Shown: piece after piece, positions 1-64,000 of the stretch
Numbering within the stretch: the first letter of the stretch is position 1
Layout: the number at the start of each line of letters is the position of its first letter
Source of the DNA: Tragulus kanchil
Taxonomy: Eukaryota > Chordata > Mammalia > Artiodactyla > Tragulidae
NCBI GenBank assembly: GCA_022376925.1
Contig: JAIOJX010000003.1
Location: forward strand, 33,800,874-33,864,873
Direction of reading: 5' to 3'
Length of the DNA: 64,000 bases
Position numbers and translations under genes: made by a program
The notes under the pieces: generated by a model
Databases searched by the model: none
The model's input: the letters and a program-made list of their open reading frames with translations, nothing else
Told to the model about the DNA's origin: nothing

Positions 1-278
1 AAAAAGAGGCACCAGGCTTCATTTGTTCAATAGTCTCTGGTCACTGTACTGCTTCACTGGCAACAACATAATACAACATTAACAATAAGGTCACCACATA
101 ACAAAGTTGCCTGATTTCAGTACTGAGGATAAAGGTCATTCAACATCAGAAGGGACAAAATGACGACAGGAATTTAGACAGAGTGACTTACCATATGCTG
201 CCTTCTGGAACTAGGGATAAATGTATACCCATTACCTGGCTTAAGATTCAAATTGGAGGCAGAAGTCAGGGTGATCAA

Positions 279-411
279 GGGACTTCCCTAGTGGTCCAGT
301 GGCTGAGATTCCAAACTTCCAATCCAGGTTTGATCCGTGGTTGGGTGACTGATATCCCAAGTGCCACAACTAAGACCCAGAGCAGTCACATAAATACAAT
401 TAAAAAAAAAA
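279..411 (+). mobile_element. Short CHR-type SINE (tRNA head plus short tail)
   Basis: It opens with the head GGGACTTCCCTAGTGGTCCA and has a degraded B box (GGTTTGATCC). It then reads CACAACTAAGACCCAGAGCA and ends in an A-run. This is the short tRNA-derived CHR-like layout common in ruminants and cetaceans. A longer CHR SINE follows in the same orientation. No clear target-site duplication is visible. Confidence 0.75.
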
Positions 412-417
412 AGATTC

Positions 418-778
418 AGGGCTTCCCTGGTGGCTCAGTGGTGAAGAGCTCACCTGCCGATGCAGGAGACATGGGTTCGATCCCTGAGCCGAGAAAATCC
501 CACATGCTGCGGAGCAACTAAGCCCATGAGCCATAACTATGGAGCCTGTGCTCTAGAGCCTCAGAGCCACAACTACTGAGCCCACGTGCCACAACTACTG
601 AAGCCCATGTGCCCTAGAGCCCAAGTTCCACACCAAGTGAAGTTATTTCAACCGGAAGCCTGCTCAACTCAACTAGAGAGTAGCCCCCACTCCCTGCAAC
701 TAGAGAAGAGCCTGTAGCAGCAGTGAAAACTCAGAATAGAGAAAAATAAATAAGTAAATAAATAAATATAAATTTAAA
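418..778 (+). mobile_element. Long CHR-type SINE
   Basis: The head is GGGCTTCCCTGGTGGCTCAG, with B box GGGTTCGATCC and then CCCACATGCTGCGGAGCAAC. The body has repeated CACAACTACTGA blocks. The tail is made of AAATAAATAAGTAAATAAAT-type repeats. The layout matches full-length CHR-2-like SINEs of Cetartiodactyla and is moderately diverged. Confidence 0.8.
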
Positions 779-1072
779 AAGAAATAGTCAAATTGGGGAG
801 AAAAACTAAGGATCTAACAAAGCCAATGTAAGCTCTGATCATTAAAAAAAACCGGGGAGCGTGGACAGTGATGGAATTCTCTTTATATCTGGAAGCTATA
901 TCCTAAAATAAAGTATTCATAATGTGTCCCACTTTACTTGTCAATAATACCTAGTTTGCCACGAAATATCTATGGATTATGCTTATAGAGAATGATTATT
1001 GAGAAATCTGATGTTAATTTTCCCAATAAGCATAAAGACATCAAGAGCAAATCCTCTTCTTTATCCAGTGTC

Positions 1073-1177
1073 TTAGTTTGTTTGGGCTGCTATGACAGAA
1101 CACCACAGATTGGGTGGTTTATAAACAATAGGAATCAATCTCTGCAGTGTGAGGGGTTGGAAGTCCAATGTCAGAGT
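1073..1177 (-). mobile_element. MLT1 LTR, part present in copy A
   Basis: The segment starting TTAGTTTGTTTGGGCTGC is the reverse complement of an MLT1 (ERVL-MaLR) LTR 3' end. It stops at the duplication junction. The same bases recur, with the rest of the LTR, in copy B. Confidence 0.75.
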
Positions 1178-1397
1178 ACTGAGAAAATAATACAACATTA
1201 ACAATAAGGTCACCACATAACAAAGTTGCCTGATTTCAGTACTGAGGATAAAGGTCATTCAACATCAGAAGGGACAAAATGACGACAGGAATTTAGACAG
1301 AGTGACTTACCATATGCTGCCTTCTGGAACTAGGGATAAATGTATACCCATTACCTGGCTTAAGATTCAAATTGGAGGCAGAAGTCAGGGTGATCAA

Positions 1398-1530
1398 GGG
1401 ACTTCCCTAGTGGTCCAGTGGCTGAGATTCCAAACTTCCAATCCAGGTTTGATCCGTGGTTGGGTGACTGATATCCCAAGTGCCACAACTAAGACCCAGA
1501 GCAGTCACATAAATACAATTAAAAAAAAAA
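1398..1530 (+). mobile_element. Short CHR-type SINE, duplicate
   Basis: This is the copy B rendering of the short SINE near 279, apparently identical to it. Confidence 0.75.
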
Positions 1531-1536
1531 AGATTC

Positions 1537-1896
1537 AGGGCTTCCCTGGTGGCTCAGTGGTGAAGAGCTCACCTGCCGATGCAGGAGACATGGGTTCGAT
1601 CCCTGAGCCGAGAAAATCCCACATGCTGCGGAGCAACTAAGCCCATGAGCCATAACTATGGAGCCTGTGCTCTAGAGCCTCAGAGCCACAACTACTGAGC
1701 CCACGTGCCACAACTACTGAAGCCCATGTGCCCTAGAGCCCAAGTTCCACACCAAGTGAAGTTATTTCAACCGGAAGCCTGCTCAACTCAACTAGAGAGT
1801 AGCCCCACTCCCTGCAACTAGAGAAGAGCCTGTAGCAGCAGTGAAAACTCAGAATAGAGAAAAATAAATAAGTAAATAAATAAATATAAATTTAAA
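1537..1896 (+). mobile_element. Long CHR-type SINE, duplicate
   Basis: This is the copy B rendering of the element near 418. It differs by one missing C in a homopolymer run, as a consensus error would. Confidence 0.8.
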
Positions 1897-2191
1897 AAGA
1901 AATAGTCAAATTGGGGAGAAAAACTAAGGATCTAACAAAGCCAATGTAAGCTCTGATCATTAAAAAAAACCGGGGAGCGTGGACAGTGATGGAATTCTCT
2001 TTATATCTGGAAGCTATATCCTAAAATAAAGTATTCATAATGTGTCCCACTTTACTTGTCAATAATACCTAGTTTGCCACGAAATATCTATGGATTATGC
2101 TTATAGAGAATGATTATTGAGAAATCTGATGTTAATTTTCCCAATAAGCATAAAGACATCAAGAGCAAATCCTCTTCTTTATCCAGTGTCT

Positions 2192-2548
2192 TAGTTTGTT
2201 TGGGCTGCTATGACAGAACACCACAGATTGGGTGGTTTATAAACAATAGGAATCAATCTCTCGCAGTGTGAGGGGTTGGAAGTCCAATGTCAGAGTGCAA
2301 CATGGTCTGGTTCTCGCCAAGTTACCTTTCTAGGTTTCTAACTGCAGACTTCTCATTTGTCCCCATGGGGCAGTAGGGCCAGTGAGGGATCTCTCGAGAG
2401 ACTCTTTTATAGAGACTTTAATTCCATTCATGAGAGCACCACCTCTGGACCTAATCACCTCCCAAAGATCCACCTTTTAATACCATCAACTAAGGCATTA
2501 GAGTATCAGCATTTGAATTTCTGGGACACAAACATTCACACCATATCA
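2192..2548 (-). mobile_element. MLT1-type LTR (ERVL-MaLR), antisense
   Basis: Read on the minus strand, the element runs from the TGATATGGTGTGAATGTTTG end through the conserved block GGAGGTGATTAGGTCC to the CAGCCCAAACAAACTAA end. These are hallmarks of MLT1 LTRs, ancient non-coding mammalian retrotransposon remnants. No internal MaLR sequence is seen, so it is a solo LTR. Confidence 0.82.
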
Positions 2549-4228: not shown

Positions 4229-4405
4229 GGGCTTCCCCGGTTGCTCAGTGGTAAAGAATTCTCAGATGGAGGAGACTGGGTCAGGAAGATCCCTTAGAGG
4301 AGAGAAAGGCAACCCTTTCCAGTATTCTGACCTGGGAAATTCCATGGACTGAGAAGCCTGGTGGGGTGAAGTCCATGGGGTTATAAAGAGTCAACTGAGC
4401 ACTCA
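4229..4405 (+). mobile_element. Bov-tA SINE, degraded
   Basis: The head GGGCTTCCCCGGTTGCTCAG is followed by the BovB-derived body: CCATGGACTGAGAAGCCTGG, GTCCATGGGG and AAAGAGTCAACTGAGCA. Missing stretches and transitions mark it as old. Its 3' tail reappears at 5419-5450 because duplication 2 begins inside it. Confidence 0.78.
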
Positions 4406-4639
4406 TCTGCATGTCACCATTTAAATTCCAAGGAATAATATGAAAACTAGTTCCTTAATGACACTAGCCACAAGTGTTTAGTGGCTACCATACTGCGCAG
4501 CACTGATAAGAACATTTGCATCATACTGAAGACTCCACTGAATATCATTGCTCAAACAAAGATCCTTTTACTACTCTCCTTAAATGAATCTCCTTCATTT
4601 ACTTCGTGAATTAGCCACATCATTTTCTAATAGCTTTTG

Positions 4640-4790
4640 TCCCAACTGTGCTATATCTGAGCAATGAGGCTCCTGAGTAAGTCACTTAACCCGCTGAGCC
4701 AGTTTGCTTATCTTTAAAATCAGAATACTAATCCCTTCCCTGTTTGTCTCACAGGCTGCTCTGATGTTCAAAGGAAATGTCACTATACAA
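4640..4790 (+). mobile_element. MIR SINE
   Basis: The core AAGTCACTTAACCCGCTGAG followed by CAGTTTGCTTATCTTTAAAA matches the MIR consensus order (ACTTAACCTCTC, then CAGTTTCCTCATCTGTAAAA). It is a diverged ancient mammalian SINE in sense orientation. Confidence 0.65.
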
Positions 4791-4904
4791 AATGAAGGAT
4801 AGTTGTTTCCAAAGGCCCTTTTCCTTTCTTTCATTTTCTAGGGACTGCCAGAAAATAGGTGATACACCTTTTACACTTAAAATATGGAATAAATATTACA
4901 ATAT

Positions 4905-5080
4905 AGTGAGACTTCCTTGGTGATCCAATGACTAAGACTAACACTCCCAATGCAGGTGGTCCAAGTTTCATTGCTGGCCAGGGAACTAGATCCCACATAC
5001 TGCAACTAAGAGTTAGCACACCACAACTAAGACCCAGCACAGCCAAATAAATAACATAAATATGTCTATTCTAAAAAAAA
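4905..5080 (+). mobile_element. Short CHR-type SINE
   Basis: The head is GACTTCCTTGGTGATCCAAT. The middle is GGGAACTAGATCCCACATAC, and the end is AACTAAGACCCAGCACAGCC followed by AAATAAATAA. This is the standard layout of the short tRNA-derived class. Confidence 0.8.
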
Positions 5081-5223
5081 GCACAACATAAGGAAGATAG
5101 AGACTAAAAAAGACACAGAAGCTGGTTAGGCCTCCCAACTTAGCCACATCTTATTTTTTCGAGGCTAAATGATTGGGCTTCTGTTCTACATGAGTCATCA
5201 GAAAATAAGTAACAGCTCCAGGT

Positions 5224-5418
5224 TTCAAACTGTGGTGCTGGAGAAGACGCTTGAGATCTCTTGGACAGCAAGGAGTTCAAATCACTTAGTCCTAAAGGAA
5301 ATCAGCCCTGGATATTCATTGGAAGGACTGATGCTGAAGTTGAAGCTCAATATTTTGGCTCCCTGATGCAATGAGCCAACTCGCTGGAAAATACCCTGAT
5401 GATAGGAAAACTTGAAGG
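5224..5418 (+). mobile_element. BovB LINE 3' region, copy A fragment
   Basis: It translates to VVLEKTLEISWTARSSNHLV and then SPGYSLEGLMLKLKL, the BovB ORF2 C-terminal region. It is cut by the duplication 2 junction. Part of it occurs three times (5260-5418, 6307-6465, 7463-7621). Confidence 0.83.
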
Positions 5419-5685
5419 CCATGGGGTTATAAAGAGTCAACTGAGCACTCATCTGCATGTCACCATTTAAATTCCAAGGAATAATATGAAAACTAGTTCC
5501 TTAATGACACTAGCCACAAGTGTTTAGTGGCTACCATACTGCGCAGCACTGATAAGAACATTTGCATCATACTGAAGACTCCACTGAATATCATTGCTCA
5601 AACAAAGATCCTTTTACTACTCTCCTTAAATGAATCTCCTTCATTTACTTCGTGAATTAGCCACATCATTTTCTAATAGCTTTTG

Positions 5686-5836
5686 TCCCAACTGTGCTAT
5701 ATCTGAGCAATGAGGCTCCTGAGTAAGTCACTTAACCCGCTGAGCCAGTTTGCTTATCTTTAAAATCAGAATACTAATCCCTTCCCTGTTTGTCTCACAG
5801 GCTGCTCTGATGTTCAAAGGAAATGTCACTATACAA
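5686..5836 (+). mobile_element. MIR SINE, duplicate
   Basis: Copy B rendering of the MIR near 4640. Confidence 0.65.
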
Positions 5837-5950
5837 AATGAAGGATAGTTGTTTCCAAAGGCCCTTTTCCTTTCTTTCATTTTCTAGGGACTGCCAGAAA
5901 ATAGGTGATACACCTTTTACACTTAAAATATGGAATAAATATTACAATAT

Positions 5951-6126
5951 AGTGAGACTTCCTTGGTGATCCAATGACTAAGACTAACACTCCCAATGCA
6001 GGTGGTCCAAGTTTCATTGCTGGCCAGGGAACTAGATCCCACATACTGCAACTAAGAGTTAGCACACCACAACTAAGACCCAGCACAGCCAAATAAATAA
6101 CATAAATATGTATATTTTAAAAAATA
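5951..6126 (+). mobile_element. Short CHR-type SINE, duplicate
   Basis: Copy B rendering of the element near 4905. Its A-rich tail differs from copy A. Confidence 0.78.
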
Positions 6127-6269
6127 GCACAACATAAGGAAGATAGAGACTAAAAAAGACACAGAAGCTGGTTAGGCCTCCCAACTTAGCCACATCTTAT
6201 TTTTTCGAGGCTAAATGATTGGGCTTCTGTTCTACATGAGTCATCAGAAAATAAGTAACAGCTCCAGGT

Positions 6270-6608
6270 TTCAAACTGTGGTGCTGGAGAAGACGCTTGA
6301 GATCTCTTGGACAGCAAGGAGTTCAAATCACTTAGTCCTAAAGGAAATCAGCCCTGGATATTCATTGGAAGGACTGATGCTGAAGTTGAAGCTCCAATAT
6401 TTTGGCTCCCTGATGCAATGAGCCAACTCGCTGGAAAATACCCTGATGATAGGAAAACTTGAAGGCAAAAGGAGAAGGAGGTGGTCGAGGATAAGATGGT
6501 TAGATAGCATCACCAACGATGGGAGACAGTGAAGGACAGGGGAGCCTGACCTGCTGCAGCCCATGGGATCAAAAAGGGTTGAACACAACTTAGCAACTGA
6601 ACAACAAC
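6270..6608 (+). mobile_element. BovB LINE 3' end, sense
   Basis: It continues past the copy A fragment to the true 3' terminus: GGTTAGATAGCATCACCAAC, CCATGGGATCAAAAAGGGTT and ACTGAACAACAACC, the last being the BovB 3' end with its short ACA repeats. It is 5'-truncated and non-coding. Confidence 0.85.
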
Positions 6609-6704
6609 CAGTGGGTATAAGCACAGAAAGTATGTCCGTTGCTGTTATCTAGGAACAAAACTATTCAGTAGTATATTTATCAGCCTTTATAATTATGGTA
6701 ATAG

Positions 6705-6840
6705 TGGCTAACACTGTTGAAATCTGCTGCCATTTTGCTAAGTGCTTCATATATATCTCACCATATTTCACAGCAAACACATGCAATAAGTACTACTGTT
6801 ATTACCATTTTACATATCAGGAAACTAAGACTTAGAATTT
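6705..6840 (-). mobile_element. MIR SINE, antisense, split by a younger SINE
   Basis: CTAAGTGCTTCATATATATC and ACCATTTTACATATCAGGAA match the reversed MIR core (CCCATTTTACAGATGAGGAA). Its end is interrupted by the SINE inserted at 6841. Confidence 0.65.
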
Positions 6841-7125
6841 TTTTTGTTAATTTTGGCCTCTTTGATTGTTTTTTTATTGATTTATTCTCATCCATCTTTA
6901 TTCTTTGGCCTGTGTGGGCCTCCCATTACAGTGGTCTCTCTTGCGGCAGAGCACAGGCTCTGGGCACATGTGCTCCAGAGCGCTGGCTCGTAATTGGACA
7001 CACTGGTCCAGCTGCTCCACAGCACATGGGATCTTCCCCGGACAGGGATTGAACCAGTGCCCCTTGCACTGCAAGGTGAACTCTTTACCCACTGGACCAC
7101 CAGGGAAGCCCAAGACTTAGAATTT
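6827..7125 (-). mobile_element. CHR-derived SINE with GTGTCC body, antisense, with TSD
   Basis: Direct repeats AAGACTTAGAATTT flank it (6827-6840 and 7112-7125). On the minus strand it has the CHR head and the B box GGTTCAATCCC. The body has GACCAGTGTGTCCAATTACG and GGAGGCCCACACAGGCC, with a short A/T-rich tail. It lies inside an older MIR. Confidence 0.85.
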
Positions 7126-7159
7126 TAAGGAATTTATCACAAATGCCCTTTCCCTCACT

Positions 7160-7337
7160 TGACCCTGACCCCATGAACTGTAGCCCACCAGGCTCCTGTG
7201 TCCATGGATTTCTCCAGGCAAGAATACTGGAGTAGGTTGCCATTTCCTCCTCCAGGAGATCTTCCTGACCCAGGCATCAAACCTGGTCTTCTTCACTGAC
7301 AGATGGATTCTTTACACTGAGCCACCTGAGAAGCCCA
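7160..7337 (-). mobile_element. Bov-tA SINE, antisense
   Basis: On the plus strand it reads ACTGTAGCCCACCAGGCTCC, then GGTTGCCATTTCCTCCTCCA, and ends with the reversed tRNA head GAGCCACCTGAGAAGCCC. Confidence 0.85.
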
Positions 7338-7462
7338 TCCTATTTATGTATAGTCTCATCTTTTTTATTTTAATTTTCATTATATTAACATTATATTACT
7401 TTATTTTCTTTAAAGATTTTTGTTTCGATGTGGACCATTTTTAAAAATCTTTATTGAGTTGG

Positions 7463-7765
7463 TTGGACAGCAAGGAGTTCAAATCACTTAGTCCTAAAGG
7501 AAATCAGCCCTGGATATTCATTGGAAGGACTGATGCTGAAGTTGAAGCTCCAATATTTTGGCTCCCTGATGCAATGAGCCAACTCGCTGGAAAATACCCT
7601 GATGATAGGAAAACTTGAAGGCAAAAGGAGAAGGAGGTGGTCGAGGATAAGATGGTTAGATAGCATCACCAACGATGGGAGACAGTGAAGGACAGGGGAG
7701 CCTGACCTGCTGCAGCCCATGGGATCAAAAAGGGTTGAACACAACTTAGCAACTGAACAACAACC
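7463..7765 (+). mobile_element. BovB LINE 3' end, duplicate
   Basis: Copy B of the BovB 3' end near 6270, beginning abruptly at the junction. Confidence 0.85.
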
Positions 7766-7861
7766 AGTGGGTATAAGCACAGAAAGTATGTCCGTTGCTG
7801 TTATCTAGGAACAAAACTATTCAGTAGTATATTTATCAGCCTTTATAATTATGGTAATAGT

Positions 7862-7997
7862 GGCTAACACTGTTGAAATCTGCTGCCATTTTTGCTAAGT
7901 GCTTCATATATATCTCACCATATTTCACAGCAAACACATGCAATAAGTACTACTGTTATTACCATTTTACATATCAGGAAACTAAGACTTAGAATTT
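7862..7997 (-). mobile_element. MIR SINE, antisense, duplicate
   Basis: Copy B of the MIR near 6705. Confidence 0.62.
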
Positions 7998-8282
7998 TTT
8001 TTGTTAATTTTGGCCTCTTTGATTGTTTTTTTATTGATTTATTCTCATCCATCTTTATTCTTTGGCCTGTGTGGGCCTCCCATTACAGTGGTCTCTCTTG
8101 CGGCAGAGCACAGGCTCTGGGCACATGTGCTCCAGAGCGCTGGCTCGTAATTGGACACACTGGTCCAGCTGCTCCACAGCACATGGGATCTTCCCCGGAC
8201 AGGGATTGAACCAGTGCCCCTTGCACTGCAAGGTGAACTCTTTACCCACTGGACCACCAGGGAAGCCCAAGACTTAGAATTT
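7984..8282 (-). mobile_element. CHR-derived SINE, antisense, duplicate
   Basis: Copy B of the element at 6827, including both flanking AAGACTTAGAATTT repeats. Confidence 0.83.
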
Positions 8283-8317
8283 TAAGGAATTTATCACAAA
8301 TGCCCTTTCCCTCACTT

Positions 8318-8495
8318 GACCCTGACCCCATGAACTGTAGCCCACCAGGCTCCTGTGTCCATGGATTTCTCCAGGCAAGAATACTGGAGTAGGTTGCCAT
8401 TTCCTCCTCCAGGAGATCTTCCTGACCCAGGCATCAAACCTGGTCTTCTTCACTGACAGATGGATTCTTTACACTGAGCCACCTGAGAAGCCCAT
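8318..8495 (-). mobile_element. Bov-tA SINE, antisense, duplicate
   Basis: Copy B of the Bov-tA near 7160. Confidence 0.83.
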
Positions 8496-8594
8496 CCTAT
8501 TTATGTATAGTCTCATCTTTTTTATTTTAATTTTCATTATATTAACATTATATTACTTTATTTTCTTTAAAGATTTTTGTTTCGATGTGGACCA

Positions 8595-8762
8595 TTTTTA
8601 AAAATCTTTATTGAGTTGGTTACAGTATTGCCTCTGTTTTTATATTTTGTGTTTTTTTGGCTGTGAGGCATGTGGGATTTTAGCTCCCTAACCAGGAATT
8701 GAACCTACACCCCCTGCATTGAAAAACACAGTTTTAGCCACTGGACTTCCAGAAAAATCCCC
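8595..8762 (-). mobile_element. Short CHR-type SINE, antisense, diverged
   Basis: It reads GGCTGTGAGGCATGTGGGAT, then AACCAGGAATTGAACCTACA, and ends with the reversed head CCACTGGACTTCCAGAAAAA. The preceding T-rich stretch is its reversed tail. Confidence 0.75.
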
Positions 8763-8879: not shown

Positions 8880-9240
8880 ATGGGGCTATTATAAACAATA
8901 CTGCAGAAAATACATTTGCATGTATTTTAATCAATATATATAATCATTTCTGATGTGTATATTCCTACAAGTGGACAGGCTGGGTTATACAGTGTGCCTT
9001 TGTTCAGCTACAGATACTGCCAGACCCTTTTCCCTGTCATTGGTGATTGGTGCAGTTGCACTGCAGCTCCTAAACATTTGGCGTCTTCTGTCTTTTTTAT
9101 TTCAGCCATTATGATGGGACTCTAGTTACAGTTCTCTTCATTGTGATTTCAATTTAGATTTTCCTAGGGATTAGTATAGTTGAACTCCTTTTCATATCTT
9201 TATTGGCCATCTGGAGATCATCTTTGCTCATCTGTTCACC
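8880..9240 (+). mobile_element. Old L1 3'UTR fragment
   Basis: The order of motifs follows L1M 3'UTRs: GGGGCTATTATAAACAATAC, ACAAGTGGACAGGCTGGGTT, CAGCCATTATGATGGGACTC, TTCATTGTGATTTCAATTTA and CATATCTTTATTGGCCATCT. It is strongly diverged. It probably resumes after the SINE at 9520-9640. Confidence 0.72.
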
Positions 9241-9242
9241 TA

Positions 9243-9508
9243 TCTTTTTTTTGGCCACTTCTATTGGTCTTTCATTTATTCATTTTCATCTATCTTTGTT
9301 CTTTGGCCTGTGTGGGCCTCCCATCGCAGCAGCCTCTCTTGCTGCAGAGCACCTGCTCTGGGTGCACACACTCCAGAGCTCCAGCTTGGTAGTTGGACAC
9401 ATCGTTCCAGCCACTCCACGGCACATGGGATCCTCCCAGGCCAGGGATTGAACCGGCAACTCTTGCCCTGCAAGGTGGTGTCCTTACCCACTGGACCACC
9501 AGGGAAGC
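9243..9508 (-). mobile_element. CHR-derived SINE with GTGTCC body, antisense
   Basis: It starts with the reversed tail and GGCCACTTCTATTGGTCTTT, then GGGCCTCCCATCGCAGCAGC and TAGTTGGACACATCG. It ends with the reversed head GGACCACCAGGGAAGCC. Approximate flanking repeats CCTATC(A)TTTTTT support insertion into the L1 remnant. Confidence 0.83.
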
Positions 9509-9700
9509 CCTATCATTTTTTTTCAATTACCTGCATTTGTCTTGGATTTGCAACAACTAATTATTGTTCTTGAAATAATTGTTCCTTTGTCATATGACAC
9601 ATATGTGTATCCTTTTTCACTATTGCCAGTGTTAGGAACCAGGCTTAGGCAAGTGGACAGATCTATGTGATTTGCTTCACTTTCTGCCCTCTTCTCTTAC

Positions 9701-9932
9701 GCATGCATGCTAAGTCACTTCAGTCGTGTCTGACTCTTGCGACCCTATGGACTGTAGCCCACCAGGCTCCTCTGTCCATAGGATTGTCCAGGCAAGACTA
9801 CCAGGGTGGGTTGCCATTTCCTCCTCCAGAGGATCTTTCCAACCCAGGGATTGAACCCATGTCTCCTGTGTCTTTTGCATTAGCAGGCCGGGTCTTTGCC
9901 ACTAGCACCACCTGGGAAACCCACTGCTCCTA
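9701..9932 (-). mobile_element. Bov-tA SINE, antisense, full length
   Basis: Reversed 3' end CACTTCAGTCGTGTCTGACT, then GGACTGTAGCCCACCAGGCT, TTGCCATTTCCTCCTCCAGA and the reversed head CACCTGGGAAACCC. Confidence 0.88.
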
Positions 9933-9994
9933 TGCATGTATTCAAAATGCCAAAGGAGGGGGTGGGGGAAATCGTACTCTAAAAAGGGTCAGCA

Positions 9995-10060
9995 GGGACT
10001 TCCCTTGTGGTTCAGTGACTAAGACTCCACGTTCCCAATGCAGGGGGCCTTGTTCGAACC
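9995..10060 (+). mobile_element. Short CHR-type SINE, cut by junction
   Basis: Only the head (GGGACTTCCCTTGTGGTTCA) and B-box region are present before the jump back to copy B. Confidence 0.75.
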
Positions 10061-10332
10061 AAGTGGACAGGCTGGGTTATACAGTGTGCCTTTGTTCAGC
10101 TACAGATACTGCCAGACCCTTTTCCCTGTCATTGGTGATTGGTGCAGTTGCACTGCAGCTCCTAAACATTTGGCGTCTTCTGTCTTTTTTATTTCAGCCA
10201 TTATGATGGGACTCTAGTTACAGTTCTCTTCATTGTGATTTCAATTTAGATTTTCCTAGGGATTAGTATAGTTGAACTCCTTTTCATATCTTTATTGGCC
10301 ATCTGGAGATCATCTTTGCTCATCTGTTCACC
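10061..10332 (+). mobile_element. Old L1 3'UTR fragment, duplicate
   Basis: Copy B of part of the L1 remnant near 8969-9240. Confidence 0.7.
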
Positions 10333-10334
10333 TA

Positions 10335-10600
10335 TCTTTTTTTTGGCCACTTCTATTGGTCTTTCATTTATTCATTTTCATCTATCTTTGTTCTTTGGCC
10401 TGTGTGGGCCTCCCATCGCAGCAGCCTCTCTTGCTGCAGAGCACCTGCTCTGGGTGCACACACTCCAGAGCTCCAGCTTGGTAGTTGGACACATCGTTCC
10501 AGCCACTCCACGGCACATGGGATCCTCCCAGGCCAGGGATTGAACCGGCAACTCTTGCCCTGCAAGGTGGTGTCCTTACCCACTGGACCACCAGGGAAGC
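10335..10600 (-). mobile_element. CHR-derived SINE, antisense, duplicate
   Basis: Copy B of the SINE near 9243. Confidence 0.83.
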
Positions 10601-10792
10601 CCTATCATTTTTTTTCAATTACCTGCATTTGTCTTGGATTTGCAACAACTAATTATTGTTCTTGAAATAATTGTTCCTTTGTCATATGACACATATGTGT
10701 ATCCTTTTTCACTATTGCCAGTGTTAGGAACCAGGCTTAGGCAAGTGGACAGATCTATGTGATTTGCTTCACTTTCTGCCCTCTTCTCTTAC

Positions 10793-11024
10793 GCATGCAT
10801 GCTAAGTCACTTCAGTCGTGTCTGACTCTTGCGACCCTATGGACTGTAGCCCACCAGGCTCCTCTGTCCATAGGATTGTCCAGGCAAGACTACCAGGGTG
10901 GGTTGCCATTTCCTCCTCCAGAGGATCTTTCCAACCCAGGGATTGAACCCATGTCTCCTGTGTCTTTTGCATTAGCAGGCCGGGTCTTTGCCACTAGCAC
11001 CACCTGGGAAACCCACTGCTCCTA
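10793..11024 (-). mobile_element. Bov-tA SINE, antisense, duplicate
   Basis: Copy B of the Bov-tA near 9701. Confidence 0.86.
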
Positions 11025-11086
11025 TGCATGTATTCAAAATGCCAAAGGAGGGGGTGGGGGAAATCGTACTCTAAAAAGGGTCAGCA

Positions 11087-50045: not shown

Positions 50046-50058
50046 ACATCATTTGCTG

Positions 50059-51156: not shown

Positions 51157-51169
51157 ACATCATTTGCTG

Positions 51170-52148: not shown

Positions 52149-52159
52149 GCTTTTACATT

Positions 52160-52647: not shown

Positions 52648-52715
52648 TTGAGTTGGCCAAAATGTTCATTTGGAGTTTTCTGTAAAAACCCAAACAAACG
52701 TTTTGGCCAACTCAA
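52648..52715. mobile_element. Mariner-family MITE, third rendering
   Basis: It lies just inside the second copy of duplication 18. Confidence 0.83.
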
Positions 52716-53294
52716 TACATTTAGTAATCATGTAGGTCAACTGCTTCTAGGCCTCTGGATTCATACATTTTTTTCCTAAAAGAGAGGACTTTTCAATGTT
52801 TGTTTTTAGAGCAAATAGGGAAAATGGCTTAGATCAAGAGTGGCTTGAACCATAGTGGAATATTTGACAACTGGATCATGATATACTGATGAACCATTTA
52901 GGGAAATAAGGACTGAATGGATGGCTCAGATTGGAAAATAACTGAATATCCATTCTCAAAAGAATCATGGGCCACTGTCACCTGAGAGGGACATGGCTAG
53001 TGTATTAATACAGAAGGGTGTTCTTGACTCACTTCTGTATCACACTGTATCACAGAAGTGGCAAGGTCATGATACGATTGATGTTGAGGGCATACTCTTC
53101 AAATCTATGATGAAACAAAATGAGAAGGAATATAGGATAAATTGAATGAGTTAGGACATTAAAATATTTAGACCTTAATTTGAGACTTAATTCAACAAGA
53201 TTAAATATAAGATTATTATTAAGTACAAGATTAAATACATATAATACCTTAAATTTGAGACTTAATTCAACAAGATTAAATAAGCTTTTACATT

Positions 53295-53563
53295 TTTTTT
53301 TAAATTTTGGCCTATTTTATTGTTTTGTTTTATTTTTCATCTATCTTTATTGTTTGGCCTGTATGGGCCTCCCATTAGAGTGGCCTCTCTTGTCTCAGAG
53401 CATCAGCTCTGGGCACATACGCTTATGAGCACTGGCTCTGTAATTGGACATACTGGTCCAGTAGCTCCACGGTACATGGGATTTTCCCAGGCCAGGGACC
53501 GAACCGGTGGCCCTCGCACTGCAAGGCAGACTCTATACCCACTGGACCACCAGGGAAGCCCTA
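53295..53563 (-). mobile_element. CHR-derived SINE, antisense, duplicate
   Basis: Copy B of the element near 52160. Confidence 0.83.
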
Positions 53564-53702
53564 TATTTATATATATATACTTTTTTTTAATTTTGGCATT
53601 CTTTATTGTTTTTTTTTGAATGATTTTTAAATTTTAACATTACTTTTTCTTTTTACAGAGTTTTGTTGTTTACAGATATGGATAAAAATAACAATCTTTA
53701 GT

Positions 53703-53930
53703 GGGCTTTTTTATTCATTTATTTTTATCCATCTTTATTGCTCAGCCTGCATGGGCCTCTCATTGTAGTGGCCTCTCTCGTGGCAGAGCACCGGCTCTGG
53801 GTGTGTGCCCAGAGCGCCGGCTCCCAATTGGACACACTGGTCCATGGATCTTCCCAGGCCAGGGATCGAACTGGTACCCCTTGTACTGCAAGGTGGACCC
53901 TCTACCCACAGGGCCACCAGGGAAGCCCAA
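53703..53930 (-). mobile_element. CHR-derived SINE with GTGTCC body, antisense
   Basis: TTATTCATTTATTTTTATCC, CATGGGCCTCTCATTGTAGT, CCCAATTGGACACACTGGTC, a short internal deletion (GTCCATGGATCTTCCC), then GGGCCACCAGGGAAGCCC. Its first 30 bases also occur at 52567-52595. Confidence 0.83.
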
Positions 53931-53949: not shown

Positions 53950-54596
53950 AAGTTTATATAGAAAAACAAACAGGCAAGAGTAGCCAAGAAAACACTGAAA
54001 ATGAAAATAGTACCAGGGAACTAACCCTACCAGATATTAAAACATAGTACCTACAGATCCTCTATAATTAAAACAGTGTGGTACTGGTCCATAAACAGAC
54101 AAACAAGCCAGTGAAAGAAGGGAATGGCTGCCTACTCCAGTTTTCTTACTTGGAGAATTCCATGGACAGAAGAGCCTTGCAGGCTACACAGTCCATGGGG
54201 TCACAAAGAGTCGGACATGACTGAGCAACTTTCACAGCCTGAATTAGATCCAATTATATATGAAAATTTAGTACACAAGAGAGGTGACTATTTAAATGGC
54301 TGGATTAAAGACAGACTTTTAGTACACGGTGCTGGGACAACTGGGTAGCCATTTGTAGAAAGATAAAGTTGTATTAATATCTCACACCATACACAAAAAT
54401 AAGCTCCAAGTGAATTAGGAATTTACATGTAAATTAAAAAAACCTGCAAGTACTAACAGAAAAATAGATGAAGTCCTCTTCAATCTCCATGTAATGAAAA
54501 TTTCTAACCATGACTCAAAATTCAGAAGCAATAAGAAAATAATAAATTTGACTAATTAAATTTTAAATTTTTGTATGACAAGAAAATCATAAAAAA
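53950..54596 (+). mobile_element. Old L1 ORF2 3' remnant, split by Bov-tA
   Basis: AAACAGTGTGGTACTGGTCC and CATAAACAGACAAACAAGCC are the well-known L1 ORF2 end region. After the SINE come GGTGCTGGGACAACTGGGTA, ATCTCACACCATACACAAAA and TTTTTGTATGACAAGAAAAT. Frames are broken throughout. Confidence 0.78.
54108..54236 (+). mobile_element. Bov-tA SINE, 5'-truncated
   Basis: GGGAATGGCTGCCTACTCCA, CCATGGACAGAAGAGCCTTG and GTCACAAAGAGTCGGACATG, inserted in the L1 remnant. Confidence 0.84.
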
Positions 54597-54953
54597 AATT
54601 AAAGTATACTAGATAGCTAGTGTCATTGTGCTAAGGGAATAGGAGTGCTTACAATGGCTTGGGGGCGAAGGTCTGGAGCGGTGGGATGGGGGAACCTGGG
54701 GGGATGGGGACCATGGATATGCATATGACTGATCTGGGAACATATATGTCTGTGAACAAGGGAATAGGAGTGCTTACAATGGCTTGGGGCAAAGGTCTGG
54801 AGCGGTGGGATGGGGGGAACTGGGGGGGTGGGGACCATGGATATGCATATGACTGATCTGGGAACATACATGTCTGTGAACAACAAAACTCTGTAAAACC
54901 TTTAAAATAAAGAATAATAATTAAAAAAAAATGGGGGGGAATTAAAGTATACT
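54597..54953 (+). mobile_element. L1-like 3' end insertion with 14-bp TSD and internal 125-bp tandem repeat
   Basis: Perfect AATTAAAGTATACT repeats (54597-54610 and 54940-54953) flank it. Inside are two head-to-tail 125-bp units (54635-54759, 54760-54884), each holding a G-rich block and GGGGACCATGGATATGCATA. The end is CAACAAAACTCTGTAAAACC, AATAAAG and an A-run. It parallels the ruminant L1 3' end (CAACAAAATTCTGTAAAGC), but the family is uncertain. Confidence 0.7.
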
Positions 54954-55037
54954 GACAAGTTGGGATAACTGTTGATGATACATGGTACAGACAAATGGGC
55001 TAATAATCTTAATATATGGCCTATCTTAAAATTGAGA

Positions 55038-55195
55038 GGCATTGGCTAAAGCAGTGCTTACTCAGATATTTACGGCATTAAATATTTATATTAGAAAGGA
55101 AGAATACCCTCAGATCAATAATGTATGTTTTGAATTCAGGAACTAGCAAAACAAGAGAAAAAATAAAACCAAAGCAAGAAGAATATAGCTGATGA
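55038..55195 (+). mobile_element. Old L1 ORF2 middle fragment
   Basis: GGCTAAAGCAGTGCTTACTC, TACGGCATTAAATATTTATA and CAGATCAATAATGTATGTTT match the L1 ORF2 block (CTAAAGCAGTGCTTAGAGGG, TTATAGCATTAAATGC). It probably derives from a different L1 than the neighbour, because it is out of order. Confidence 0.72.
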
Positions 55196-55360
55196 CCACG
55201 ACTAGACTTTCATTGGTACACACAATTTTCCAAGTAGCTAGAAAAAAAGAGTGATTCTATAATGTATAATTCTTATTTTAATATAATTTAAGTACTTATT
55301 TTCACTTTCTCTTAGTATGTAAGCCAGAGTTGTAAATGTATAAGACTAATATAAAGGAGT

Positions 55361-55609
55361 ATTATGGGCCGAATCGCATCCCCCAATCCCATCACCCAAT
55401 TCTTAGCTGAAGTCCTAACCTCCAGTACCTTAGCATATTTGAAAATAGTGCCTTTCAAGGAGGTCATTAAGGTAGGATGAGGTGGGCACTTGATCCCACA
55501 TGACTGGATGTTAGATCCTAACAGGAAGAGACTGGGATATAGATATAGTAACAGAGGAAAGAGTCTGTGAAGACACAGTAAGATGGATGTCTGAAAGCCA
55601 AGAAGAGAG
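55361..55609 (+). mobile_element. MLT1 LTR, copy A part
   Basis: ATTATGGGCCGAATCGCATC, AATTCTTAGCTGAAGTCCTA and GTGTCTGAAAGCCAAGAAG-like text in MLT1 order. It is cut by the junction. Confidence 0.75.
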
Positions 55610-55758
55610 GCAAGTACTAACAGAAAAATAGATGAAGTCCTCTTCAATCTCCATGTAATGAAAATTTCTAACCATGACTCAAAATTCAGAAGCAATAAGA
55701 AAATAATAAATTTGACTAATTAAATTTTAAATTTTTGTATGACAAGAAAATCATAAAA

Positions 55759-56115
55759 AAATTAAAGTATACTAGATAGCTAGTGTCATTGTGCTAAGGG
55801 AATAGGAGTGCTTACAATGGCTTGGGGGCGAAGGTCTGGAGCGGTGGGATGGGGGAACCTGGGGGGATGGGGACCATGGATATGCATATGACTGATCTGG
55901 GAACATATATGTCTGTGAACAAGGGAATAGGAGTGCTTACAATGGCTTGGGGCAAAGGTCTGGAGGGGTGGGATGGGGGAATGGGGGAGCTGGGGACCAT
56001 GGATATGCATATGACTGATCTGGGAACATACATGTCTGTGAACAACAAAACTCTGTAAAACCTTTAAAATAAAGAATAATAATTAAAAAAAAATGGGGGG
56101 GAATTAAAGTATACT
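55759..56115 (+). mobile_element. L1-like 3' end insertion, duplicate
   Basis: Copy B of the insertion at 54597, again with both 125-bp units. Confidence 0.68.
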
Positions 56116-56200
56116 GACAAGTTGGGATAACTGTTGATGATACATGGTACAGACAAATGGGCTAATAATCTTAATATATGGCCTATCTTAAAATTGAGAG

Positions 56201-56358
56201 GCATTGGCTAAAGCAGTGCTTACTCAGATATTTACGGCATTAAATATTTATATTAGAAAGGAAGAATACCCTCAGATCAATAATGTATGTTTTGAATTCA
56301 GGAACTAGCAAAACAAGAGAAAAAATAAAACCAAAGCAAGAAGAATATAGCTGATGAC
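56201..56358 (+). mobile_element. Old L1 ORF2 fragment, duplicate
   Basis: Copy B of the fragment near 55038. Confidence 0.7.
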
Positions 56359-56521
56359 CACGACTAGACTTTCATTGGTACACACAATTTTCCAAGTAGC
56401 TAGAAAAAAAGAGTGATTCTATAATGTATAATTCTTATTTTAATATAATTTAAGTACTTATTTTCACTTTCTCTTAGTATGTAAGCCAGAGTTGTAAATG
56501 TATAAGACTAATATAAAGGAG

Positions 56522-56877
56522 TATTATGGGCCGAATCGCATCCCCCAATCCCATCACCCAATTCTTAGCTGAAGTCCTAACCTCCAGTACCTTAGCATAT
56601 TTGAAAATAGTGCCTTTCAAGGAGGTCATTAAGGTAGGATGAGGTGGGCACTTGATCCCACATGACTGGATGTTAGATCCTAACAGGAAGAGACTGGGAT
56701 ATAGATATAGTAACAGAGGAAAGAGTCTGTGAAGACACAGTAAGATGGATGTCTGAAAGCCAAGAAGAGAGGCCTGGAAAAAATCAGACTTGCTGACAAC
56801 TTGATCTTGGGCTTCCCAGCCTCCAGATCTGTAAGAAATAAATTTCTGCTGTTTAAGCCACTGAGGCTATGTTACTT
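56522..56877 (+). mobile_element. MLT1-type LTR (ERVL-MaLR), complete, sense
   Basis: It runs from TATTATGGGCCGAATCGC through GACTGGGATATAGATATAGT, TGATCTTGGGCTTCCCAGCC and TAAGAAATAAATTTCTGCTG to AAGCCACTGAGGCTATGTTA. The GAAATAAATTTCTG polyadenylation region is diagnostic. It is followed at once by an internal BovB fragment. Confidence 0.85.
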
Positions 56878-57110
56878 TTGCATCAGGTGGCCAAAGTATT
56901 GGAGCTTCAGTTTCGGCATCAGTCCTTCCAATGAATATTCAGGGTTGACTTCCTTGAGGATCTACTGGTTTGATCTCCTTGCAGTCCAAGGGACTCTCAA
57001 GAATTTTCTCCATCACCACAGTTCAAAAGCATCAATTCGTTGGCACCAAGGCTCCTATATGGTCCAACTCTCACATCCATACATGACTACTGGAGAAACC
57101 ATAGCAATAA
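56878..57110 (-). mobile_element. BovB ORF2 internal fragment, antisense
   Basis: CATCAGGTGGCCAAAGTATT, TCCTTCCAATGAATATTCAG and CTTGCAGTCCAAGGGACTCT; both LINE ends are missing. Confidence 0.86.
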
Positions 57111-57766
57111 CATGTAAATGCAGTTTAGGCATTTTTTTCTGCTCAACTGCACTTTCACAAGAAGCTGAAAAGCAAATAGTAAACTTTAGAGTACGTTTAA
57201 CAGAGAATGTCTTTAAGATCTCCAAATAGGTGCTCACCAACAACTGAATAATCACAGATGATCATTTGAGGCCAGGGGACTGGCAATGAGAGCTGAGTAG
57301 AGGCAGGATGCATGCACCCTGGAACTAGAGCCCCAACAATGGAGGTTTTACTCTTCTTACAAAACAGGAGCCACTCTTGTATTCACAATTGTTCTGAGGA
57401 GTAATTACAGGAAATCTTTTGTCAGTAAAATGTTTCAAAGCTTGCATACTGCCTTTTTTTCCCACTGGGGGAAAAAACTGTCTTAGTTGATACATGAAGA
57501 TGAGTTGATAAACGAGATCTTTGTCTGTTCTCTGCATTTTGGTACAAACTGTATAATCCATTCCCAACCCAAACATCCACATTACTCAATTCTATCACTG
57601 AATAATTGAAAATTAGCTCACATTTAGGCACTTACTACATCATCTTCTCATACATTCTTAATATTGCATTTCTAAGAAGCTGATAATGTACCTCCTTGCA
57701 TTAGAAATAAATAATCAAAGGTTGAACTTTGGGGCAGCTTTCCTTTCTTGGCTAAGATTGAGTTCA
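57111..57766. other. Unclassified sequence
   Basis: No gene is seen. It is duplicated at 58230-58899. Confidence 0.4.
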
Positions 57767-57771
57767 TTCTC

Positions 57772-57996
57772 TGATCCCACATGACTGGATGTTAGATCCT
57801 AACAGGAAGAGACTGGGATATAGATATAGTAACAGAGGAAAGAGTCTGTGAAGACACAGTAAGATGGATGTCTGAAAGCCAAGAAGAGAGGCCTGGAAAA
57901 AATCAGACTTGCTGACAACTTGATCTTGGGCTTCCCAGCCTCCAGATCTGTAAGAAATAAATTTCTGCTGTTTAAGCCACTGAGGCTATGTTACTT
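57772..57996 (+). mobile_element. MLT1 LTR 3' part, duplicate
   Basis: It begins mid-element at the junction (TGATCCCACATGACTGG). Confidence 0.78.
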
Positions 57997-58229
57997 TTGC
58001 ATCAGGTGGCCAAAGTATTGGAGCTTCAGTTTCGGCATCAGTCCTTCCAATGAATATTCAGGGTTGACTTCCTTGAGGATCTACTGGTTTGATCTCCTTG
58101 CAGTCCAAGGGACTCTCAAGAATTTTCTCCATCACCACAGTTCAAAAGCATCAATTCGTTGGCACCAAGGCTCCTATATGGTCCAACTCTCACATCCATA
58201 CATGACTACTGGAGAAACCATAGCAATAA
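57997..58229 (-). mobile_element. BovB ORF2 internal fragment, duplicate
   Basis: Copy B of the fragment near 56878. Confidence 0.84.
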
Positions 58230-58899
58230 CATGTAAATGCAGTTTAGGCATTTTTTTCTGCTCAACTGCACTTTCACAAGAAGCTGAAAAGCAAATAGTA
58301 AACTTTAGAGTACGTTTAACAGAGAATGTCTTTAAGATCTCCAAATAGGTGCTCACCAACAACTGAATAATCACAGATGATCATTTGAGGCCAGGGGACT
58401 GGCAATGAGAGCTGAGTAGAGGCAGGATGCATGCACCCCTGGAACTAGAGCCCCAACAATGGAGGTTTTACTCTTCTTACAAAACAGGAGCCACTCTTGT
58501 ATTCACAATTGTTCTGAGGAGTAATTACAGGAAATCTTTTGTCAGTAAAATGTTTCAAAGCTTGCATACTGCCTTTTTTTCCCACTGGGGGAAAAAACTG
58601 TCTTAGTTGATACATGAAGATGAGTTGATAAACGAGATCTTTGTCTGTTCTCTGCATTTTGGTACAAACTGTATAATCCATTCCCAACCCAAACATCCAC
58701 ATTACTCAATTCTATCACTGAATAATTGAAAATTAGCTCACATTTAGGCACTTACTACATCATCTTCTCATACATTCTTAATATTGCATTTCTAAGAAGC
58801 TGATAATGTACCTCCTTGCATTAGAAATAAATAATCAAAGGTGCTGAACTCTGGAGTTATGAGTTGTCAGCTTTCCTTTCTTGGCTAAGATTGAGTTCA

Positions 58900-59868: not shown

Positions 59869-60031
59869 GAATAAGGAGAACGGAGGTTCAAAGACCATCT
59901 TAGAAGTACCAAATTTCACTTAACATGGATTAAAGCACAGATCCAACTTCAAGCAGTTTAACTTTCATTATATCCCAGTTCCTAATTCCAGAAATGCTAT
60001 TTTTGATTTAATATATAGGTAGCAGAAAACT

Positions 60032-60160
60032 CCCAAGAGGAGGAAATGGCAACCCACTCCAATATTCTTCTTGGAGAATTCCATGAACAGAGGAGCCTGG
60101 TTGGCTACAGTCCACGGGGTCGCAGAGAGTTCAATGTGACTGAGCAACTTCACATAGAAC
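60032..60160 (+). mobile_element. Bov-tA SINE, 5'-truncated
   Basis: GGAAATGGCAACCCACTCCA, GAACAGAGGAGCCTGGTTGG and GTCGCAGAGAGTTCAATGTG. Its last part recurs at 61224 because duplication 21 starts inside it. Confidence 0.83.
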
Positions 60161-62335
60161 AACAGAAAACTCATCTCTAATCTTTTTATTCCAGAGAACA
60201 AAAGGAGTTGATAACACACTTTGGAGCAAAATGAGTTTTGTAATGGGAAAGAATTAAATGCTCAAGAACAAATAATTGGACTTCTCCTGCTTGCAAAGAG
60301 TTTAAGATGAATTCAACATCTAAATTTAGATGAAAACTTAAAAAATAAAAATAAAAAGGCAGCCTCAAACTGGAGATAAGAATAAAAAAACAAAAGATCA
60401 ATTTTTTCCTATCACAAGTGATGAGGCATAAAAACCCCAGGCTGGAACAATGCCTAGAAATGAAAGAGCAGAAAGAGATGCCTCATCATTGGATTTTTTT
60501 AAATAGCGTTAAGTATTCTGACCACATTTTATGAGGAAGAGCCTTGAAAGAAAGTGAGAGTTAAAGTTCTATTTTTGAGTCTTCCGACTTAACATAGACA
60601 AGACCAGGAACTTTCCTTTTCTCTTAAAACATCCTGTCTTTATAAATATATTTATGCTGTCTTTAGCTGTTATGTAACTGCACCAAATAGTCAAAATGTG
60701 AGGAATATAAATTCCATTTACTTTATCTGTTTATATTAAGACTTCTGTACCTGGAGTTCTTGGATGCTAAACTCTCATGGATAGAATTCAGAGGGTTGTT
60801 GAACTTGATGGGTAAAAAATTTATATCTTTATTTTCAGTAGTATTTAACTGAAATTTAGAAAGTCCTCTGGGCATGAACAATGGCACAAATCTTAGTTCC
60901 TGTGACCTTATGACCAATAGAAATTGCAGAGACTTTCAAATCACAGTGTAGTTGTTGCATGTATCTCAAAATACCATTTTATGCTCATCACTCCCTCAGA
61001 AATGCTGCAGTATTAGCTCTCAGCCTCCCTTTACCACAGACACCCTTGCAATTCAGCCGGCCAACTGCAAAGCAACTCTGACCCTCCATATGGTGAAGTT
61101 GTGTAGCCTCATAATAGACATTTAACTCAAAGAGTTTTAGAGACTTTTGATATTCTTTGAGAGAACCTATCCATTCCTTGTTAAGCAAGTAATCGAAACT
61201 TTAATAAGTTTGAATATATTTCCGGGTCGCAGAGAGTTCAATGTGACTGAGCAACTTCACATAGAACAACAGAAAACTCATCTCTAATCTTTTTATTCCA
61301 GAGAACAAAAGGAGTTGATAACACACTTTGGAGCAAAATGAGTTTTGTAATGGGAAAGAATTAAATGCTCAAGAACAAATAATTGGACTTCTCCTGCTTG
61401 CAAAGAGTTTAAGATGAATTCAACATCTAAATTTAGATGAAAACTTAAAAAATAAAAATAAAAAGGCAGCCTCAAACTGGAGATAAGAATAAAAAAACAA
61501 AAGATCAATTTTTTCCTATCACAAGTGATGAGGCATAAAAACCCCAGGCTGGAACAATGCCTAGAAATGAAAGAGCAGAAAGAGATGCCTCATCATTGGA
61601 TTTTTTTAAATAGCGTTAAGTATTCTGACCACATTTTATGAGGAAGAGCCTTGAAAGAAAGTGAGAGTTAAAGTTCTATTTTTGAGTCTTCCGACTTAAC
61701 ATAGACAAGACCAGGAACTTTCCTTTTCTCTTAAAACATCCTGTCTTTATAAATATATTTATGCTGTCTTTAGCTGTTATGTAACTGCACCAAATAGTCA
61801 AAATGTGAGGAATATAAATTCCATTTACTTTATCTGTTTATATTAAGACTTCTGTACCTGGAGTTCTTGGATGCTAAACTCTCATGGATAGAATTCAGAG
61901 GGTTGTTGAACTTGATGGGTAAAAAATTTATATCTTTATTTTCAGTAGTATTTAACTGAAATTTAGAAAGTCCTCTGGGCATGAACACTGGCAAAAATCT
62001 TAGTTCCTGTGACCTTATGACCAATAGAAATTGCAGAGACTTTCAAATCACAGTGTAGTTGTTGCATGTATCTCAAAATACCATTTTATGCTCATCACTC
62101 CCTCAGAAATGCTGCAGTATTAGCTCTCAGCCTCCCTTTACCACAGACACCCTTGCAATTCAGCCGGCCAACTGCAAAGCAACTCTGACCCTCCATATGG
62201 TGAAGTTGTGTAGCCTCATAATAGACATTTAACTCAAAGAGTTTTAGAGACTTTTGATATTCTTTGAGAGAACCTATCCATTCCTTGTTAAGCAAGTAAT
62301 CGAAACTTTAATAAGTTTATGAAAATATATTTCCG
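60117..62335. repeat. Tandem duplication 21 (unit 1107 bp)
   Basis: Copy A is 60117-61223 and copy B 61224-62335, abutting at a shared CCGGGTCGC. Near the end, copy A has TTTGAATATATTTCCG where copy B has TTTATGAAAATATATTTCCG. Internal differences lie at 60885-60895 versus 61992-62002. Confidence 0.93.
60161..61223. other. Unclassified AT-rich sequence
   Basis: No gene or confident repeat is seen. It is duplicated at 61268-62335. Confidence 0.4.
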
Positions 62336-64000
62336 TGAACCTGGACTGTTAGCACTCAAAGCCAAAAAACAAAAACTGGATGTCATTGGACATGTATATT
62401 GCTCTATCAAAGAAAATGTATCCTTATTTATGCTAAGTAACAACAGCCTTCACACTGATAATTGTTGTAAAAATAAAATTTAAATTTGAGTTGCCTATAT
62501 TTTGAATCTATAGCTACTTAGCATATTTTTAAAGCTCATATAATTTTACAGTATAAAAATACTATATTTTTCAATATAATTGATTTTCTCTGAAATTTTA
62601 TTACTCAAAACATTTATTTTCACTTAATTTAAAAACTGTTTCTTGAAACTACCAGGACCCAGCCATTGCTAGGGACAAAATAAAGAATATCTCTATCTTA
62701 TGCTTAACAACAACAAATTTTTAACATACGTAAGCTATTCAGTGCTAATACAAATGTCTGCTTCAATCACAAAGATGAAAATCAATGTACATCTCTTTTC
62801 AAATCCTGTTGTTCCTGAATTACTCTTTACCTCACTCCTGGTCTTAACATCAGAGAAGTTTTAATGTCTCACTTGGCCACACACAGGCACTGGTCCACAC
62901 CTACTGACCTTACTTAGACACGGAGTAACCTATCAGATGAAAGGGGGAATCGATCTCACAATTTAAAAATGCAAACTACATAAGAAGTCCTGATTACATT
63001 TGAATTTAAAAATGTCATTCTCTTTTTTCAAACTCTAAACTTTTTATTTTGTACTGGGATAGGGGCTCGGGATGAACACTCAAATCTTAGTTCCTGTGAC
63101 CTTATGACCAATGTGCAGAGACTTTCAAATCACAGTGTAGTTGTTGCATGTATCTCAAAATACCATTTTATGCTCATCACTCCCTCAGAAATGCTGCAGT
63201 ATTAGCTCTCAGCCTCCCTTTACCACCGACACCCTTGCAATTCAGCCAACTGCAAAGCAACTCTGACCCTCCATATGGTGAAGTTGTGTAGCCTCATAAT
63301 AGACATTTAACTCAAAGAGTTTTAGAGACTTTTGATATTCTTTGAGAGAACCTATCCATTCCTTGTTAAGCAAGTAATCGAAACTTTAATAAGTTTATGA
63401 AAATATATTTCCGTGAACCTGGACTGTTAGCACTCAAAGCCAAAAAACAAAAACTGGATGTCATTGGACATGTATATTGCTCTATCAAAGAAAATGTATC
63501 CTTATTTATGCTAAGTAACAACAGCCTTCACACTGATAATTGTTGTAAAAATAAAATTTAAATTTGAGTTGCCTATATTTTGAATCTATAGCTACTTAGC
63601 ATATTTTTAAAGCTCATATAATTTTACAGTATAAAAATACTATATTTTTCAATATAATTGATTTTCTCTGAAATTTTATTACTCAAAACATTTATTTTCA
63701 CTTAATTTAAAAACTGTTTCTTGAAACTACCAGGACCCAGCCATTGCTAGGGACAAAATAAAGAATATCTCTATCTTATGCTTAACAACAACAAATTTTT
63801 AACATCGTAAGCTATTCAGTGCTAATACAAATGTCTGCTTCAATCACAAAGATGAAAATCAATGTACATCTCTTTTCAAATCCTGTTGTTCCTGAATTAC
63901 TCTTTACCTCACTCCTGGTCTTAACATCAGAGAAGTTTTAATGTCTCACTTGGCCACACACAGGCACTGGTCCACACCTACTGACCTTACTTAGACACGG
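61978..64000. repeat. Tandem duplication 22 (unit about 1.08 kb, cut by window edge)
   Basis: Copy A is 61978-62923 or longer; copy B starts about 63071 and continues past the window end. The shift falls from 1087 to 1077 as copy B loses small pieces in its first 200 bases (CCAATGTGCAGAG for CCAATAGAAATTGCAGAG; CAGCCAACTGC for CAGCCGGCCAACTGC). 60880-61223, 61978-62335 and 63071-63412 form a triplet. Confidence 0.9.
62336..63070. other. Unclassified AT-rich sequence
   Basis: No gene or recognised repeat is seen. Most of it repeats at 63413-64000. Confidence 0.4.

Follow-up and report, generated by a model that had tools for sequence, protein, structure and literature searches.

Near-uniform 1.1-kb direct duplications in a Tragulus kanchil genome assembly point to overlapping pieces joined without merging

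A 64,000-bp stretch of the genome assembly of the artiodactyl Tragulus kanchil (GenBank assembly GCA_022376925.1, contig JAIOJX010000003.1, here C32, positions 33800874-33864873; hereafter the window) carries one direct, adjacent duplication of about 1.1 kb after another. We are almost certain that these duplications are an assembly error of technical origin, and the reading that overlapping pieces were laid end to end, with the stretch that they share kept twice, is well supported. This conclusion follows from their single size class, the near identity of the copies, the polar, error-rich ends of the pieces and the noisy spacers between copies (7 of 24), as well as from their presence in 20 of 20 random stretches of the assembly and inside the genes RAG1 and APC. 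Analysis of the sequence of this assembly alone, with neither reads nor a second ruminant assembly, gave no result that contradicts a technical origin.

Serial duplications along the window

Self-comparison of the window, followed by alignment of the copies, identified 22 adjacent direct duplications, of which 21 were complete and one was cut by the right end, the same number that a first-pass annotation, made from the letters alone, had reported for positions 68..64000. That annotation had also described tightly sized, near-identical copies of 1.05-1.23 kb with junctions every 1.9-6.7 kb or so, and our measurements bear it out. In the complete pairs (n=21), the period ranges from 1046 to 1232 bp (mean 1136, standard deviation (s.d.) 43), the first copy from 1053 to 1205 bp and the spacer from -7 to 37 bp; BLAST identity between copies is 97.75-100% over the 22 rows, and the pieces between complete pairs measure 1882-6682 bp (n=20). 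Extra copies account for 24,602 of the 64,000 bases (38%), leaving about 39.4 kb, close to the predicted 25 kb of false and 39 kb of remaining sequence. There is no N in the window sequence.

At seven sites, stretches of 104-342 bp are written three times, appearing in the self-comparison as rows with an offset of about 2.2 kb, because consecutive junctions are separated by so short a piece. A further match, between 16902-17216 and 18073-18388 (89% identity, offset 1171), was left out of all counts, and is read, like other self-matches of 78-91% in the window, as interspersed repeats. An additional, 23rd pair straddles the left window edge (pair 0, with a period of 1149 and a second copy that ends at 254). 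All pairs, defined by self-comparison and copy alignment, are listed below in window coordinates, with the strand and the identity between copies.

1..254, + strand: pair 0, right part of second copy; period 1149; copies at 608-1754 and 1757-2902 of locus L008, 99.9%
65..2296, + strand: pair 1, copies 65-1177 and 1184-2296, 99.7%
4367..6466, + strand: pair 2, copies 4367-5419 and 5413-6466, 99.5%
6307..8621, + strand: pair 3, copies 6307-7464 and 7463-8621, 99.9%
8968..11152, + strand: pair 4, copies 8968-10060 and 10060-11152, 100%
11238..13438, + strand: pair 5, copies 11238-12330 and 12347-13438, 99.5%
13821..16192, + strand: pair 6, copies 13821-14999 and 15014-16192, 100%
18190..20427, + strand: pair 7, copies 18190-19300 and 19334-20427, 97.8%
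24816..27212, + strand: pair 8, copies 24816-26015 and 26013-27212, 99.6%
27689..30076, + strand: pair 9, copies 27689-28870 and 28894-30076, 99.7%
31379..33814, + strand: pair 10, copies 31379-32583 and 32611-33814, 99.8%
34095..36391, + strand: pair 11, copies 34095-35227 and 35256-36391, 98.7%
36590..38793, + strand: pair 12, copies 36590-37692 and 37692-38793, 99.9%
38589..40810, + strand: pair 13, copies 38589-39696 and 39700-40810, 99.7%
42567..44839, + strand: pair 14, copies 42567-43695 and 43711-44839, 100%
44649..46845, + strand: pair 15, copies 44649-45748 and 45746-46845, 100%
47476..49709, + strand: pair 16, copies 47476-48592 and 48594-49709, 99.4%
49606..51793, + strand: pair 17, copies 49606-50682 and 50720-51793, 99.7%
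51493..53740, + strand: pair 18, copies 51493-52601 and 52629-53740, 99.5%
54446..56773, + strand: pair 19, copies 54446-55611 and 55610-56773, 99.5%
56653..58899, + strand: pair 20, copies 56653-57766 and 57772-58899, 98.7%
60117..62335, + strand: pair 21, copies 60117-61224 and 61224-62335, 99.5%
61973..64000, + strand: pair 22, cut by the window end, copies 61973-62923 (matched extent) and 63066-64000, period 1093, 98.2%

The duplications recur throughout the assembly

The assembly comprises 3,167,203,957 bases in 32 contigs and looks chromosome-scale, since 16 contigs of 73-297 Mb sum to about 3.15 Gb. As a random sample we took 20 stretches of 10 kb, the first 20 of 60 places drawn at random within parts of these 16 contigs, which fell on 11 contigs. 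Direct pairs of about 1.1 kb were present in 20 of the 20 stretches, amounting to 59 pairs, or about one per 3.4 kb, 47 of them complete and with periods of 1037-1176 bp (mean 1109, s.d. 32). Extra copies, measured by alignment, made up 58,066 of the 200,000 bases (29.0%; bootstrap 95% interval 25.1-32.8%). The first-pass annotation had described the window as overlapping contigs; the fault is not confined to that stretch but runs through the genome.

Together, the window and the random stretches contain 81 pairs; the 68 complete ones enter the length, polarity and spacer counts, the other 13 being truncated at a stretch end. Periods fall within 1037-1232 bp in 68 of the 68 complete pairs, and the second copy directly follows the first, with spacers of -31 to 68 bp (median 5). 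The pieces between complete pairs measure 1815-6682 bp and none is shorter than 1792 bp (n=47, after dropping 13 of 60 that involved pairs cut by a stretch end).

Further places gave the same picture. At least one pair occurs on each of the 16 large contigs, counting contig C7 through its RAG1 locus. Each of eight loci returned by an initial search (L001-L008) contains a pair, complete in four of them, with periods of 1087-1149 bp except in L003; the set includes two loci that overlap or adjoin the window (L001 and L008) and two that overlap one another (L004 and L005). Among six hand-picked stretches of 5 kb, four contain pairs and 4,909 of 30,000 bases (16%) are extra, a lower share perhaps due in part to pairs often being cut by so short a stretch. 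The two stretches without a pair are a C7 stretch without any repeat and a satellite array on a 1.5-Mb contig (C9:1000000-1004999, L034), where a tandem unit of about 365 bp repeats with 78-86% identity at the listed offsets and no near-identical 1.1-kb pair was found. In one random stretch (L019), a run of 136 N at 9709-9844 immediately precedes the second copy of a pair cut by the stretch end, and a join with overlap may there also carry a gap.

Copy differences are concentrated at the ends of the pieces

If overlapping consensus pieces abut at each junction, consensus errors are expected at the right end of the first copy, where one piece stops, and at the left end of the second copy, where the next one starts. 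Differences between the copies of the 68 complete pairs, counted by tenth of the overlap over 75,469 alignment columns, were 98, 26, 8, 37, 15, 13, 22, 8, 20 and 176. The difference rate was 24-38 per kb within 25 bp of the left end and 24-40 per kb within 50 bp of the right end, compared with 2-3.5 per kb at 100-400 bp inside the overlap. Moreover, the differences are polar: in the left tenth, 67 bases are missing from the second copy and 7 from the first, in the right tenth 136 are missing from the first copy and 9 from the second, and in the middle the losses are even (47 versus 53).

Long losses enter these totals base by base, so that counts per pair are the fairer test. Within 100 bp of the right end, 27 of 29 untied pairs show the loss in the terminating copy (27 versus 2, P 1.6e-6), and within 100 bp of the left end, where the signal is weaker per pair, 17 of 23 do so (17 versus 6, P 0.035). 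Among the 24 spacers tested, all of 15 bp or more and with enough flank, seven resemble the sequence expected to follow or precede them, each at P <= 0.05 (binomial P 1.3e-4); one spacer of 68 bp has a score of 87, when random places average 36 (P 0.02). Terminal differences and noisy spacers of this sort characterise consensus pieces whose ends are thin and error-rich, and we know of no biological duplication that gives such end errors.

Single-copy coding exons are split by the duplications

Mammals carry RAG1 and APC as single-copy genes, and in each the part that we searched for belongs to one long coding exon. Profile matches to RAG1 on C7 come in three parts, covering profile positions 2-379, then 22-226, then 223-632. 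The locus (C7:30136014-30138994; L035, L036) contains an internal direct repeat with a period of 1101 bp and 99.6% identity, accompanied by frame breaks. Were such a duplication real, RAG1 would be disabled. Likewise, the APC basic domain on C3 (71384655-71387937, partly covered by L037) gives three matches spaced by 1111 and 1116 bp, all of which include profile positions 302-342 and none of which has a stop inside. A fourth APC-type match, on C26, is unsplit and presumably represents APC2. Both gene families for which we had search results are thus hit by the duplication inside single-copy coding exons.

A fixed-segment assembler is the most likely source

The overlap is nearly constant and slightly longer than 1 kb while the length of the pieces varies, which points to an assembler that works with segments of fixed length. 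In this reading, consensus pieces of about 1.8-6.7 kb overlapped their neighbours by about 1.1 kb, and at each join the pieces would have been placed end to end, unmerged, doubling the shared stretch. We regard an assembler of the wtdbg/wtdbg2 (Redbean) kind as the probable source, where both the use of such a program and its failure to stitch are inferred. The joined units would then most likely be sub-contig consensus units of the assembler; the first-pass annotation was accordingly right about the joining of overlapping pieces, but these are probably not finished contigs.

Programs of this type derive the consensus edge by edge, use bins of 256 bp and may let neighbouring segments overlap by up to 256 bp. 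In such a scheme, each segment would be a vertex of the graph, with one consensus per edge (a segment, the gap and the next segment), and neighbouring consensus pieces would need to be stitched across their common segment; were stitching to fail, one segment plus some slack would be repeated at every join. Reads are cut into segments of 1024 bp, according to a passage of PMC7730629. With such segments and bins, the predicted overlap would be 1024 to about 1280 bp and the shortest piece about 1.8 kb. The periods of all 68 complete pairs (1037-1232 bp) exceed a 1024-bp segment by no more than about one 256-bp bin, and the shortest piece, of 1815 bp, compares with a minimum of 1792 bp for two 1024-bp segments overlapping by 256 bp. 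The duplications thus resemble wtdbg2/Redbean output as it is expected to look in the length of the overlap (about one segment), the minimum length of the pieces (about two segments) and the error-rich piece ends.

Several observations weigh against this kind of assembler. No 256-bp spacing of junctions was detected among 45 distances, nor when cut pairs were left out, where 35 distances gave R at 256 of 0.18 and 0.24, versus null 95% maxima of 0.44 and 0.45; scatter of the bin phase from read to read could mask such steps. The cut pair in L003 has a period of 1004, below 1024, and 11 of the 47 pieces are shorter than two segments of 1024 bp, which requires the option of overlapping segments. 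In a toy model of the overlap with 16 settings, only a depth of 3-5 with raw reads longer than the consensus comes near the mean of 1109, and its s.d. at that depth is 46-57 compared with the 32 seen. Additionally, 17 of the 24 tested spacers do not significantly resemble the continuation of a neighbouring piece. Finally, the benchmark in PMC7730629 reports that Redbean genome sizes obtained with real reads did not differ significantly from those of the references, unlike the inflation seen here; the same source describes Redbean assemblies of simulated reads of mediocre quality that were larger than their references.

The same kind of artefact might instead come from another program, such as polishing or correction in chunks with overlaps of about 1 kb, or a gap filler or hybrid scaffolder that keeps overlaps. 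This explanation agrees that the duplications are artefacts and competes only with the kind of assembler named; we consider it a possible but distinctly less likely source. All the evidence for an artefact would fit any concatenation of overlapping pieces, and the 256-bp spacing was not found. Conversely, chunked polishing should yield pieces of fixed length, when the 47 pieces range from 1815 to 6682 bp, and ordinary contig overlaps should vary widely, when all 68 periods lie between 1037 and 1232 bp.

Long-read assemblies are also known to contain false duplications of haplotype or sequencing-error origin, which are alike in that sequence present once is written twice. As estimated from k-mer counts, most human assemblies of PMC9668749 contain 0.3-2.3% of false duplication, whereas here extra copies, counted by alignment, reach about 29%, have one length and are directly adjacent. 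That both haplotypes were kept side by side seems to us very improbable: interior differences of 2.5 per kb are in a range plausible for heterozygosity, but copies from two haplotypes are not of fixed length, interior differences are absent from 27 of the 68 pairs and seven pairs are identical letter by letter, the differences heap at piece ends with a polarity, and two haplotypes do not give the three copies seen at some stretches.

Genuine tandem duplications also consist of head-to-tail copies that are direct, adjacent and near-identical, but that they should recur along the genome at one length, as in the 59 random pairs, with terminus-specific losses where equal accuracy is expected at both copy ends, and with a frame-broken RAG1 and an altered APC where conserved, essential genes should be intact, is so improbable that we dismiss it, in line with the argument of the first-pass annotation that real duplications would not keep to a single length.

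Extent of the error and its consequences

If the share of 29% in the sample holds throughout, false sequence amounts to about 0.92 Gb (0.79-1.04 Gb) of the assembly, and 2.1-2.4 Gb are left. We lean, with some reserve, towards the view that about 0.9 Gb of the 3.17 Gb of a chromosome-scale mammalian assembly stems from one failure mode, in which a fixed-segment assembler left its consensus pieces unstitched, and for which we found no earlier report. Searches of open-licence papers, judged by titles and the beginnings of abstracts, gave no report of unmerged segment overlaps, and this failure mode is not described in the passages considered from PMC9668749, PMC12037172, PMC9915519 and PMC9902641.

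The fault holds little biological interest and is easy to detect, but it carries practical weight for users of the assembly. RAG1 appears internally duplicated and frame-broken and the APC domain threefold, so that gene models, copy-number estimates, genome size, repeat dating and whole-genome alignments derived from this assembly would be unreliable. Assemblies made by the same method may share the fault, which would show up on simple comparison of each with itself as direct adjacent repeats whose period is 1.03-1.25 kb. The remaining 2.1-2.4 Gb would be less than we expect for a bovid, and less than the 2.96 Gb that PMC12239632 gives for the linked-read and Hi-C assembly of one bovid, the mountain bongo; lost repeats are one possibility to explain this shortfall.

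Other features of the window

No Pfam match at E <= 0.01 was obtained for eight open stretches of the window, chosen from a longer list. Repeat-encoded peptides carry SINE signatures that suggest a ruminant. A tRNA-like match on the - strand (32.5 bits, cut-off 29) is seen twice, at 28368-28440 and 29574-29646, because it lies inside pair 9. Both copies of pair 19 contain a tandem repeat of two 125-bp units that are 95% alike (54633-54883 and 55796-56045), and this two-unit repeat may be genuine.

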